A stretch of 36,068 nt of DNA from an uncultured Bacillota bacterium (GTDB taxonomy: Bacteria; Bacillota_I; Bacilli_A; RFN20; CAG-826), in the NCBI GenBank assembly GCA_949287245.1, contig CASEFL010000010.1, positions 1-36,068 on the forward strand, read 5' to 3'. Position numbers and translations under genes: made by a program. Position 1 is the first letter of the stretch. Every line of letters starts with the position of its first letter. This document shows positions 1 through 22,479 of this stretch, in pieces. Below the pieces are notes generated by a model that was not told where the DNA came from, made no database searches, and saw only the letters and a list, made by a program, of their open reading frames with translations.

Positions 1-358
1 CTTCCAAGGGTTTGGCTGTTCGCCAATTAAAGTGGTACGCGAGCTGGGTTCAAAACGTCGTGAGACAGTTTGGTCCCTATCTGTCGTGGGCGTAGGAAAC
101 TTGAAGGGTCTGGTCTCTAGTACGAGAGGACCGAGATCAACGAAGCACTGGTACACCGGTTGTCGCGCCAGCGGCACGGCCGGGTGGCTACCTTCGGAAG
201 AGATAAACGCTGAAAGCATCTAAGCGTGAAGCTCGCCCTAAGATGAGGTTTCCCATCCTTTATGGAGTAAGGGCCCCCCAATGTCAGGGGGTTGATAGGT
301 TGGATCTGTAAGCGCGGTGACGCGTTCAGGAGACCAATACTAATAGCCCGAGGATTTC
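1..358 (+). rRNA. 23S ribosomal RNA, 3' end (partial)
   Basis: The first 358 bases are the 3' end of 23S rRNA. The sarcin-ricin loop is visible near 116-132 (AGTACGAGAGGACCG), and the typical terminal segment with CCAATACTAATAGCCCGAGG lies just before the end. The 5' part is outside the window. The exact 3' end is estimated by analogy with Bacillus 23S and may be off by a few bases. An 85-base spacer without a tRNA separates it from the 5S gene. Confidence 0.95.
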
Positions 359-443
359 TTATCGATTCATTCTTTATAAGTCGATATCTATATGCAGGAA
401 AGAGCAAATAACGTGTTCGGTTTTTAAAGAGCACAGGAAAAAA

Positions 444-560
444 GCAGTCCGGTGATGTTGGCGCGGTGGCCATACCCGTTCCCATCCCGAACACGGAAGT
501 CAAGCACCGCAGTGGCGATGATAGCCCCCTTGGGGCGAAAGTAGCGCGTTGCCGGGCTGC
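444..560 (+). rRNA. 5S ribosomal RNA
   Basis: This 117-base gene has the conserved 5S core (CCCGTTCCCATCCCGAACACGG) and a terminal stem, GCAGTCCGG (444-452) with CCGGGCTGC (552-560), that pairs along its full length with one G-U. It follows the 23S end in the usual rRNA operon order, and a hairpin terminator follows immediately. Confidence 0.95.
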
Positions 561-18215: not shown

Positions 18216-19497
18216 AAAGAAAAAAATTCATATTATTGGAGGCGGTTTAGCCGGCAGCGAAGCAGCCTATTTTCTCTTAAAAAGAGGATATGAAGTTTTT
18301 CTTCATGAACGTAGACCCTTGAGTAGCGATTCTGCTCATCACACCGAATATTTTGGTGAACTTGTTTGTTCGAATTCGTTAAAAAGTAAGCGACTTGATA
18401 ATGCTTGTGGGCTTTTAAAAGAAGAGATGCGCCTTCTTGGCTCATTAATGATGGAGGCTGCTTCTTATTCTGAAGTTCCTGCTGGTAACGCTTTAGCGGT
18501 AGATCGTGATTTATTTGCGCAATATATGACGAAACGATTGCGCTCTTTTCCCTCTTTTCATGTGATTCGTGAAGAAGTTAAAGAACTCGATTTTGAAAAC
18601 CCAACCATTTTAGCCACTGGTCCTTTAACAAGTGATTCTCTTCTTTCCTTTTTGAAAAAAACTTTAGGAGAGGAAATGTGTTCTTTTTTTGATGCTTCGG
18701 CACCCATTGTAAAAAAAGAGTCCCTTGATTTTTCTATTTGTTACTATAAAAGTCGTTTTGAACAAGGGGATGATTCCTATATCAATGCTCCTTTTACAAA
18801 AGAGCAATATTTTCAATTTGTTCGCGAATTAGTAAAGGCAAAAACGGCTACTTTGCATGAGGGAGATTCTTCTTATTTTGAAGGTTGTTTGCCACTTGAA
18901 GTCATGGCAAAACGCGATATTGAAACTTTACGTCATGGACCGTTAAAACCTTTTGGTCTTAGAAAAGATGAGAATGCTCGTCCTTACGCCGTAATGCAAA
19001 TGCGGCAAGATGATCAACTTGCCTCTTTATATAATCTCGTGGGCTTTCAAACGAACTTAACGTATGAAGAACAACGACGAGTTTTTCGTTTGATTCCGGG
19101 TTTAGAACATGCCGAATTTGTTCGTTATGGGTTAATGCATCGGAATGCCTTTCTTGATAGTGGAAAAGTTTTAAATGAGGATCTTTCTTTGAAGAAAGGG
19201 AAAAATATCTTTATTGCTGGTCAGCTTTCTGGGGTAGAAGGTTATGTAGAAAGCGCGGCATCAGGAATTGCTGTGGCCATTTCTTTAGCGACTAGATTAG
19301 AAAAAGATTGTTTTTCTCCCTTTCCTATAGAAACGATGTTAGGAGCCTTACTTCGCTATATTACTTTCCCTCGTTATACAAGATTAGAACCAATGAATGC
19401 AAACTGGGGTCTTCTTGGGGTGAATAAAAATCAACGAGAAGAAGCAGTTAAGAAAAGTTTAAAATCATTAAGGGAATATCAAGAAAAATACTTATGA
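18208..19497 (+). CDS. trmFO: Folate/FAD-dependent tRNA-uracil-54 methyltransferase TrmFO
   Basis: A 429-residue flavoprotein that makes m5U54 (ribothymidine) in the T loop using methylene-tetrahydrofolate. The FAD-binding GxGxxG is in IHIIGGGLAGSEAAYFL. Family motifs continue with LVCSNSLKS, GNALAVDRD and FEGCLPLEVMAKRG-like sequence (FEGCLPLEVMAKRD), then GQLSGVEGYVESAASG near the C-terminus. ATG 18208 overlaps the topA stop; frame open back to 18121 belongs to topA. The stop overlaps xerC (ATGA). Length matches the family (about 435). Confidence 0.97.
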   Translation: MTKKKKIHIIGGGLAGSEAAYFLLKRGYEVFLHERRPLSSDSAHHTEYFGELVCSNSLKSKRLDNACGLLKEEMRLLGSLMMEAASYSEVPAGNALAVDRDLFAQYMTKRLRSFPSFHVIREEVKELDFENPTILATGPLTSDSLLSFLKKTLGEEMCSFFDASAPIVKKESLDFSICYYKSRFEQGDDSYINAPFTKEQYFQFVRELVKAKTATLHEGDSSYFEGCLPLEVMAKRDIETLRHGPLKPFGLRKDENARPYAVMQMRQDDQLASLYNLVGFQTNLTYEEQRRVFRLIPGLEHAEFVRYGLMHRNAFLDSGKVLNEDLSLKKGKNIFIAGQLSGVEGYVESAASGIAVAISLATRLEKDCFSPFPIETMLGALLRYITFPRYTRLEPMNANWGLLGVNKNQREEAVKKSLKSLREYQEKYL

Positions 19498-20402
19498 AAG
19501 AAGTTTTAGCAAAATATCTTGATTTTCTTCGTTATGTGCGAGGATATAGCGAAAATACAATTAAGAATTATAGGGAAGATCTTCTTTCTTTTGCTTCTTA
19601 TTTAAAAGCGACGAATTTATCTTTTTCCTCCCTTCAAAAAAAAGATATTCGTGAATATTTAAAAGAAGAAAAAATGCGTGGTCTTTCACAAAATTCGTTA
19701 AATCGAAGAGTTAGTGCCTTACGTGGATTTTATGAGTTTTGTAAGGAAGAAAAAATTGTCTCGTATAGTCCTTTTGCGGGCATTGTTCTTGGGAAGAAAA
19801 GAACTCATTTGCCTGATATTCTCCCTTCAAGAGATGAAAAAGTTTTATTAAAGAAAAATCAAGAACGAAATGACATTTTAGTTTATCGTGATCAAGCGAT
19901 TCTTTTGCTTTTTCTTAGTAGTGGAATTCGGGTTGGGGAAGCAGAAAAACTAACCTTATCTTCGTTAGATTTAAACCGGAGAATTCTTAAGGTGTTTGGC
20001 AAAGGAAGAAAAGAACGCCTTGTCCCTTTTAACGAAGAAACAGAAAGTGTTTTAAAAGAATATTTAGAAAAGTGTCGCCCATTATTGGCGAAAGAAAACG
20101 AGAACGCTTTATTTTTAAATGCACGAGGAAAAAAATTAACGGTGCGGGGATATGAATACATTTTCGCTTCTATAGAGGAAAAAATTGGATTGCATTTTGG
20201 CATTCATCCTCATGAATTACGTCATAGTTTTGCTACGAAACTTTTGGAAAAAGGGGCAGATCTTCGATTAATTCAAATGCTTTTAGGGCATAAAAGTTTA
20301 AATACGACAACCATTTATACTCATGTTTCAACAAAATATTTACAAGAAGAGTATGAAAAAGCTTTTCCTTCTCTTTCTCTAAAAGAGAAAAAGAATGATT
20401 GA
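19494..20402 (+). CDS. xerC: Tyrosine recombinase XerC/CodV
   Basis: A 302-residue tyrosine recombinase that resolves chromosome dimers. The SAM-like core-binding N-terminal domain covers about residues 1-90. Catalytic residues are visible: Arg146 in SSGIRVGE, His240 and Arg243 in HPHELRHSF, His in LGH near 266, and Tyr275 in TIYTHVS. The position after topA-trmFO matches codV/xerC of Bacillus rather than xerD. The clpQ, clpY and codY genes that usually follow are missing. The gene's end carries the -35 box of the rpsB promoter. Confidence 0.94.
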   Translation: MKEVLAKYLDFLRYVRGYSENTIKNYREDLLSFASYLKATNLSFSSLQKKDIREYLKEEKMRGLSQNSLNRRVSALRGFYEFCKEEKIVSYSPFAGIVLGKKRTHLPDILPSRDEKVLLKKNQERNDILVYRDQAILLLFLSSGIRVGEAEKLTLSSLDLNRRILKVFGKGRKERLVPFNEETESVLKEYLEKCRPLLAKENENALFLNARGKKLTVRGYEYIFASIEEKIGLHFGIHPHELRHSFATKLLEKGADLRLIQMLLGHKSLNTTTIYTHVSTKYLQEEYEKAFPSLSLKEKKND

Positions 20403-20427
20403 GAGTAAGAAAAGAGAAGCGTATTAT
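20399..20427 (+). promoter_or_regulatory. Promoter for rpsB-tsf
   Basis: TTGAGA (20399-20404) overlaps the end of xerC and TATTAT (20422-20427) follows after 17 bases, one mismatch from consensus in each box. It is one of the best sigma-A-like promoters in the window. The predicted start is near 20434, giving a leader of about 136 bases. Confidence 0.75.
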
Positions 20428-20433
20428 GGCAAA

Positions 20434-20569
20434 CGGCCGCTTTTTAGTGGCAAATACACACCTTGTGGATGAAGACCCGGTGTTCTTATTGCGGGCAAAG
20501 GCGCTTAAAAATCGCATGAGTGGGAACTTTTAGAAACAAGGGAGGAAAAAACACGAAGGAGTTCAGAAA
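20434..20569 (+). ncRNA. Candidate structured leader RNA of rpsB
   Basis: The 136-base leader is far longer than others here and GC-richer in its first two thirds. Visible stems: GCCGC (20436-20440) with GTGGC (20447-20451); CACA (20457-20460) with TGTG (20464-20467); CCCG (20476-20479) with CGGG (20492-20495). It ends in two ribosome-binding-like sites, AAGGGAGG (20538-20545 region) and AAGGAG (20556-20561). Position suggests S2 autoregulation. No family match could be tested. Confidence 0.5.
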
Positions 20570-21631
20570 ATGTCTGAAGAAACAAAAGAAACCGTTGTTG
20601 AAGAAACAACAGAAGTTACAGGAGAAGAAAACCCTGTAGTAGAAGAAAACATCACGATGGAAGATGTTTATCATGATACGAACGCCCCGATTATGACTGT
20701 TCGTAAATTATTAGAGGCTGGTGTTCAATTTGGTCATCAAACTCGTCGCTGGAATCCGAAGATGCAAGATTTCATTTATGGAGCAAGAAACAACATCCAT
20801 ATCATTGATTTAGTGAAATCTGCTGCGGCAACGGAAAATGCTTATCATAAGCTTTATGAAATTGCTAAAAGTGGCGGTAAAGTTCTTTTTGTGGGAACAA
20901 AGCCATCAAGCAAACAAGCCGTCATTGATGAGGCTACTCGTTCTGGTTCCTTTTATATTACCAATCGTTGGTTAGGCGGAACATTAACGAATTTCCGCAC
21001 GATTCTTACTCGAATCAAGAAATTAAAAGATTTAGAGCAAATGGAAGAAGATGGGAGCATGGATCGTCTTTCCAAAAAAGAACAAGCTACGAACCGTAAA
21101 TTATTAGAAAAACTTTCTAAAAATTTAGGTGGCATCAAGGAAATGCGTCGCACGCCTCAAGCGCTTGTTGTTACCGATCCTACTATTGAACATAATGCCG
21201 TGAAAGAAGCAACAACCTTAGGAATTCCTGTTTTTGCTCTTTGCGATACAAACGATGATCCTACCACCTGCACATATCCTATCGGTGCAAATAATGATGG
21301 TACGGCTTCTGTCCGCTTGCTTGTTGCTGTTTTAGCTGATGCAATTGCCGAAGCAAAAGGTGGGGCTACGGAAGTGGCTTATACCAAAGATGCTGGGGAA
21401 GAAGCAACAATGAAAGATGCGATTCGTGCAGCAGATATTGCAAATGAACAACGGAAAGTATTAATCCGTCAACAACGCAAAGAACGGGAAGAAAAGATGG
21501 CCCGTTTACAAGCAGAACGCGCCGCAAGATGGGCAGCAAAAAAGGCTGAACGTGATGCTGCCGCGAAAGCAGCTTCAGGAGAAACTGCGGCCCAAGTAGA
21601 AGCAGCATCTACAGAAAAGGAGGAAGAATAA
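20570..21631 (+). CDS. rpsB: 30S ribosomal protein S2 with N- and C-terminal extensions
   Basis: A 353-residue S2, about 100 residues longer than most. The core begins near residue 42 at TVRKLLEAGVQFGHQTRRWNPKM and ends near 260 after PIGANNDGTASVRLL. Before it lies an acidic segment of about 41 residues (13 Asp/Glu, one Lys). After it lies a charged, Ala-rich helical tail of about 90 residues (KEREEKMARLQAERAARW...), ending in KEEE. ATG 20570 is supported by AAGGAG 8 bases upstream; no ribosome binding site precedes the internal Met codons at residues 30 and 42. The stop overlaps the tsf start by one base, the usual rpsB-tsf coupling. Confidence 0.96.
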   Translation: MSEETKETVVEETTEVTGEENPVVEENITMEDVYHDTNAPIMTVRKLLEAGVQFGHQTRRWNPKMQDFIYGARNNIHIIDLVKSAAATENAYHKLYEIAKSGGKVLFVGTKPSSKQAVIDEATRSGSFYITNRWLGGTLTNFRTILTRIKKLKDLEQMEEDGSMDRLSKKEQATNRKLLEKLSKNLGGIKEMRRTPQALVVTDPTIEHNAVKEATTLGIPVFALCDTNDDPTTCTYPIGANNDGTASVRLLVAVLADAIAEAKGGATEVAYTKDAGEEATMKDAIRAADIANEQRKVLIRQQRKEREEKMARLQAERAARWAAKKAERDAAAKAASGETAAQVEAASTEKEEE

Positions 21632-22479
21632 TGGCTGAGAAGAATGTCATTGAATTAATCAAACAACTCCGGGAACGTACTGGCGCTGGCATGATGGACT
21701 GCAAGCATGCCTTAGAAGAAAATAGTTTTGATATTGAAAAAGCTATTGACTGGTTACGGGAAAAAGGAATTGCTAAATCCGCAAAACGCGCAGGAAGAAC
21801 CGCTAGTGAAGGACTTGCTGCGGTTAAGATTTGTTCGAAATGTGGAAAAGCGGTTATTGCCGAAATTAACTGTGAAACAGATTTTGTTTCTGCTTCGGAT
21901 AAATTCCACCATTTAGTGGATTCGGTTATGGATTATTTAATGGACAATGATCCAAAAAGTATTGAAGAGGCAAAAGAAGGTACTTTCCAAGCATTCCAAG
22001 ATGCAGGCATTGCTCTAGGAGAAAAACTTGATTTCCGTCGTTTCACCATTCTTCATTTGAATGAGGGAGAAGGATATGGTTCTTATATCCATATGGGTGG
22101 AAAAATCGCCACTCTTCTCATCTTAAAGAAAGAAGACGAGGAATTAGCAAACGGGTTAGCTATGCACATCTGTGCGAATGCTCCTTTATATACAACTCTT
22201 GATTCGGTTCCTGCCCTTGAAAGAGAAAGAGAAGTCAATATTGCCCGCGCCGAAGTGGCCAGCGATCCAAAACTTATTTCCAAACCAGATGCGGTAAAAG
22301 CACAAATTGTTGAAAGAAAAGCGGATAAAGTTCTTAGTGCATCCTGTTTATATCTTCAAGAGTATCTCTTAGACAGCACAAAGAAAGTGGGAGACGTATT
22401 AAAAGAGAAAGGTAATGAGGTTGTTACCTTTGTCCGTTTCGCTGTCGGTGAAGGGATTGAAAAAGGCGAAGAAGAATAA
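21631..22479 (+). CDS. tsf: Elongation factor Ts
   Basis: A 282-residue guanine nucleotide exchange factor for EF-Tu. The N-terminal UBA-like domain has LRERTGAGMMDCKHALEE and AIDWLREKGI. The core has the EINCETDFV motif and the C-terminal VGEGIEKGEEE. An odd point is ICSKCG just before that motif, a CxxC that with the motif's own Cys could be part of a small metal or redox site; most EF-Ts proteins have no CxxC there. AGGAGG sits just upstream, inside the end of rpsB. A strong terminator follows. Confidence 0.97.
   Translation: MAEKNVIELIKQLRERTGAGMMDCKHALEENSFDIEKAIDWLREKGIAKSAKRAGRTASEGLAAVKICSKCGKAVIAEINCETDFVSASDKFHHLVDSVMDYLMDNDPKSIEEAKEGTFQAFQDAGIALGEKLDFRRFTILHLNEGEGYGSYIHMGGKIATLLILKKEDEELANGLAMHICANAPLYTTLDSVPALEREREVNIARAEVASDPKLISKPDAVKAQIVERKADKVLSASCLYLQEYLLDSTKKVGDVLKEKGNEVVTFVRFAVGEGIEKGEEE

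Follow-up and report, generated by a model that had tools for sequence, protein, structure and literature searches.

The window, that is, the whole stretch of 36,068 nucleotides analyzed here, belongs to a 1.12 Mb assembly whose nearest named matches are uncultured Bacilli. It contains, in this order, xerC (19494-20402), rpsB (20570-21631), tsf (21631-22479), a terminator-like hairpin found by sequence inspection 3' of tsf (GGAGGCUCAGGCCUCC-U6), and a further unit that probably comprises pyrH and frr. Only the name of rpsB is backed by a search here; the other gene names come from the preliminary description and from gene order. The S2 protein is extended at its N terminus by about 40 residues, many of them Glu, Thr or Val (20570-20690), and has a charged, Ala-rich C-terminal tail, both outside the region matched in distant S2 proteins, and a search of viral contigs for an S2 relative found none. 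At the start of the window (1-557), the 3' end of a 23S rRNA gene is followed by 5S rRNA. The features of the region between xerC and rpsB and of the two genes that follow are listed below.

20399-20427, plus strand: predicted promoter, with -35 TTGAGA at 20399-20404, a 17-nt spacer and -10 TATTAT at 20422-20427
20435-20451, plus strand: predicted P0 hairpin at the transcript 5' end (GGCCGCUUUUUAGUGGC), from single-sequence folding; the equivalent segment folds in relatives
20455-20460, plus strand: conserved TACACA, the CACAC signature of the rpsB motif, at the same place in the t44 consensus; C3, C5, A6 and C7 invariant in alignment A1
20461-20466, plus strand: P1 5' strand CCUUGU, pairing with 20536-20541, from covariation
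20467-20471, plus strand: 5' side of the internal loop, GGAUG (consensus GRAUU); G13, A15 and T16 invariant in alignment A1
20472-20478, plus strand: 5' strand of upper P1 (P1b), AAG-A-CCC, from covariation
20480-20484, plus strand: junction GUGUU, proposed pseudoknot 5' strand with partner AACAC at 20550-20554, moderately supported
20485-20493, plus strand: P3 5' strand, from arm pairing and covariation
20493-20511, plus strand: P3 module GGGC-AAAGGC-GCUU-AAAAA, nearly constant across the 43 unique leaders from two genera
20513-20520, plus strand: P3 3' strand CGCAUGAG, from arm pairing and covariation
20522-20529, plus strand: 3' strand of upper P1 (P1b), GGG-AA-CUU, from covariation
20530-20535, plus strand: 3' side of the internal loop, UUAGAA (consensus UUNGAA); T77, G79, A80 and A81 invariant in alignment A1
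20536-20541, plus strand: P1 3' strand ACAAGG, from covariation
20541-20545, plus strand: conserved GGAGG, resembling a ribosome-binding site (RBS), located 24 nt 5' of the start codon and belonging to the motif
20550-20554, plus strand: proposed pseudoknot 3' strand AACAC, from its pairing with the junction GUGUU
20556-20561, plus strand: rpsB Shine-Dalgarno sequence AAGGAG, one base past the pseudoknot strand
20570-21631, plus strand: rpsB, ribosomal protein S2, 353 aa
21631-22479, plus strand: tsf (EF-Ts), in the same operon as rpsB

The preliminary description of this DNA had placed a promoter over the end of xerC and predicted from it a 136-base leader for rpsB, and the present analysis agrees on both points. 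The promoter hexamers show 10 of 12 matches and the -35 box overlaps the xerC stop codon; with a predicted transcript start at about 20434 and the start codon at 20570, the leader spans 136 nt. The promoter count is unremarkable by itself (1 found against 1.5 expected in shuffles), and the nearest relative, L002, has identical hexamers and spacing with a different spacer sequence. Promoter-like sites were detected at 129 of 142 unique leaders, compared with 83 of 142 shuffled regions, so the evidence in relatives comes from the clustering of -10 boxes, which mostly precede the TACACA element by 16-43 nt (mode 24-29), rather than from the count. Two further claims are borne out by the sequence: the leader is richer in GC than the other intergenic DNA of the window (45.6% vs 35.9%), and it holds two RBS-like sites (GGAGG and AAGGAG), of which only the second lies at Shine-Dalgarno distance. 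No terminator was found on the sense strand of the leader, and attenuation was rejected on this ground. Elsewhere in the window, TATAAT lies 4-9 nt before the ATG at the gene starts 611, 3194, 12900, 22554 and 24852, which implies leaderless or nearly leaderless mRNAs. Six sites show this arrangement where 2.3 would be expected, and five of the six are at gene heads, which makes the earlier statement that most unit heads are leaderless plausible within the window.

A DNA search already matched 27 of 193 related genomes. The rpsB upstream regions collected from relatives share a common element. It begins with a 5' hairpin, ACRCA and the six-base 5' strand of a helix; GRAUU then leads into a second helix, a junction and a hairpin. 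The 3' half runs from UUNGAA through the six bases that complete the first helix to GAGG, an A-rich segment containing AAC, and finally the real Shine-Dalgarno sequence. With the covariance model R1, the leader was detected in 237 of the 279 genomes searched from the order and in 104 of the 296 from the class. S2 was encoded downstream in all but eight of 253 loci, and some of these eight are too short to reach the gene or were fetched for another reason. One genome (G025) has two leader matches (L041 and L066) on different contigs, perhaps from two strains binned together.

With respect to structure, at least three stems had been claimed for the leader. Folding of the single sequence gave no more stability than dinucleotide shuffles (z -0.67, or 0.18 with longer ends), and thus stems were accepted from covariation only. 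By comparison among relatives, the helices P0, P1, upper P1 and P3 are all recovered, so the claim stands on comparative grounds and not on the fold of its own sequence. In the order-level alignment, 97.4% of P1 and upper P1 was paired, with a covariation of 0.755 against 0.301 in shuffled and at most 0.25 in slid alignments, and the compensatory changes expected among relatives are therefore present. At the genus level, the full structure (28 leaders) was 94.6% paired with a covariation of 0.390 against 0.186 after shuffling, and 15 of the 27 pairs had changes on both sides; all these figures come from related sequences and do not count independent events. As a control for circularity, both arms were anchored on flanking sequence only, with pairing ignored, and arms were swapped between sequences. 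In this setting, P1 was paired in 93.5% of cells compared with 70.9% with swapped arms, upper P1 in 85% compared with 57%, and the P3 arms in 86% compared with 60% in the control. The 26-nt segment equivalent to P0 had a mean fold z of -2.9 over 143 unique leaders, and the internal loop GRAUU/UUNGAA is near-invariant across the order. The occurrence of several pair types per position across families leaves little doubt that a folded, conserved leader RNA is real.

These results bear on two simpler explanations. The region might be a chance or coding artefact, i.e., the tail of xerC, an antisense ORF or a small peptide encoded in the leader, given that the -10 region contains an ATG that opens a frame of about 35 codons and that the minus strand has a 94-aa ORF at 20233-20517. 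However, that ATG precedes the predicted transcript start and L002 lacks it, for which reason a leader peptide was rejected; moreover, leader lengths of relatives differ by numbers of bases not divisible by three, with the helices retained, and both the covariation and the flank-anchored pairing contradict such an origin, which we regard as almost certainly wrong. It is also conceivable that the RNA is a structural aid, with a 5' hairpin for mRNA stability and a standby platform for strong constitutive translation, and exerts no feedback. The conserved P0 hairpin at the transcript 5' end and the conserved A-rich stretch 5' of the Shine-Dalgarno sequence fit this idea, but the invariant internal loop and the compensatory changes in P1 and P3 demand a specific fold beyond the needs of a platform, and homology to a proven autoregulatory element also speaks against it. 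Such a purely structural role appears very improbable.

It is worth noting that P3 carries a near-invariant module, GGRC(C)-RAAnnA-(G)GYUU-AAAAA-KC, in the genus of the window and a second genus of its family (g1 and g18; 43 unique leaders), and that GGAC/GUUU replaces GGGC/GCUU in four of the 43. The module might be a newly evolved second recognition or docking site that gives this sub-lineage a distinct form of S2 control, for example through S1 or EF-Ts as co-sensor or through an A-rich strand that locks the pseudoknot; we offer this as a tentative suggestion that is more probably wrong than right. One further exact match to the module in the genome lies antisense within a predicted cation/proton antiporter gene and was read as chance.

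A pseudoknot is also indicated. In the window, base pairing is possible between GUGUU (20480-20484) and AACAC (20550-20554), the latter of which ends one base 5' of AAGGAG. Across the class, the core of this interaction pairs GU with AC in 135 of 141 leaders, and a double change to GA with UC is found in four (L231, L234, L237 and L238). Outside the core, covariation is weak, with pairing little higher than in the swapped control (2.98 against 2.78 pairs per leader), and the third position is A-A in many relatives. The GUGUU/AACAC pseudoknot is likely in the clade of the window, while a pseudoknot between the junction and the 3' extension is possible for the class in general. An alternative register directly 3' of P1 (GGNNN with the junction) was good in some relatives (GGCUA/UAGUC, GGCUU/AAGUC) and failed in others, and was rejected. 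In another family of Bacilli (f25-type loci, L200-L233), 17 leaders have a uniform potential pseudoknot, CCGU/ACGG.

The leader had been described as belonging to no known S2 leader class, which the comparison does not support: its anatomy is that of the rpsB motif, or t44, and intermediate Bacilli leaders connect the two. The rpsB motif (Meyer et al. 2009) was reported from Alpha- and Gammaproteobacteria, Cyanobacteria and some Firmicutes; it has a long P1, a variable P3, a P2 that is absent or very short in Firmicutes, and a pseudoknot from the junction to a 3' extension after P1 that is shorter in Firmicutes (PMC2704228). The window leader lies upstream of rpsB in the rpsB-tsf operon, its covariation-supported long P1 is capped by a junction with a variable P3 and no P2, as in that description (PMC2704228), and the signature CACAC...P1' GGAGG...AAC appears as ACACAC ... 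ACAAGGGAGG ... AACAC. The Rfam t44 model (RF00127), by description narrower than the published motif, did not match the window even at E<=10 and its gathering score was not reached; among the window and 19 relatives, t44 in one gammaproteobacterium was the only Rfam match apart from others at E<=10 that were judged chance. Within the class, t44 matches other Bacilli rpsB leaders with scores slightly short of its cut-off, in alignments that extend from CACAC to GUGGAGGC..AAC, and R1 matches the same positions. A bridge model, R2, built from loci matched by both t44 and R1, detected relatives in the order with E values down to 3e-8 (L017) and also matched the E. coli leader in its correct position with E 0.015. 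The E. coli leader was not found by R1, and the window and its own genome are absent from the R2 match list. Class membership thus depends on intermediates, through which the window leader is most plausibly placed on a far-diverged Bacilli branch of the rpsB motif class.

In E. coli, excess S2, helped by S1, represses rpsB translation via the leader and tsf falls too, with the RBS itself reported to lie outside the operator (PMC10931766); repression of rpsB-tsf by S2 through the leader is also described elsewhere (PMC2704228). A candidate S2 autoregulatory RNA had been proposed at this locus, and S2 autoregulation is indeed the best explanation for a conserved, covarying leader with homology to the E. 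coli element. The leader at 20434-20569 is very probably a diverged Bacilli rpsB motif that serves as an S2 autoregulatory leader. By analogy, the most likely mechanism would be translational repression by S2, perhaps with S1: S2 in excess of free 30S subunits would bind the leader RNA, perhaps together with S1 as in E. coli, and stabilize the pseudoknotted form, 30S loading on rpsB would be blocked, and tsf expression would fall along with rpsB; without excess S2, the weak pseudoknot would open and translation would go ahead. Since no terminator was found in the leader and the Shine-Dalgarno sequence lies next to the possible pseudoknot strand, preventing 30S entry would be the simplest step. 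For the lineage of the window, we infer S2 binding, repression and the requirement for S1 from E. coli. It may also be that the RNA regulates rpsB-tsf with a sensor other than S2 alone, such as S1, EF-Ts or an assembly intermediate. E. coli S2 needs its companion S1 (PMC10931766), tsf lies in the operon, and the P3 module is an extra conserved element able to contact another partner; however, the E. coli member of the class is repressed by S2, and the usual ligand of a ribosomal protein leader is a protein that the same mRNA encodes (PMC2704228). We consider another sensor unlikely and prefer control by S2.

These data indicate that S2 control of rpsB-tsf has been kept in small-genome uncultured Bacilli and that a large clade (more than 200 genomes searched here) escapes Rfam t44. 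The approximately 160 unique leaders provide a data set with which the family model can be widened and the parts recognized by S2 can be sought. While the S2-leader class is already known, a branch beyond the standard model and a lineage-specific P3 module on an otherwise plain stem are added here.

Compared with known systems, the 20 ribosomal leader candidates of Eckert and Weinberg (2020) are likewise covarying bacterial ribosomal protein leaders, none of them assigned to S2, and their sole rpsB entry is a Bacteroidia L13 leader (PMC7247131). With the rpsB motif (PMC2704228), the window leader shares the position upstream of rpsB, the long P1, the lack of P2 seen in Firmicutes, the variable P3 and a possible pseudoknot that joins the junction with the 3' extension. 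It differs in the lineage-specific loop GRAUU/UUNGAA (which may already occur in the 2009 Firmicutes alignment), in a 6-bp lower P1, in the 5' hairpin P0 next to the promoter, in the P3 module that is near-invariant in two genera, and in the 5-bp GUGUU/AACAC pairing of its clade. With t44 (RF00127; the E. coli rpsB leader, tff), it has in common CACAC, P1, an upper helix, a hairpin and the GUGGAGGC-AAC 3' end, such that GUGGAGGCAUAACCCC with GGGGU/ACCCC in E. coli corresponds to GGGAGGAAAAAACAC with GUGUU/AACAC in the window.
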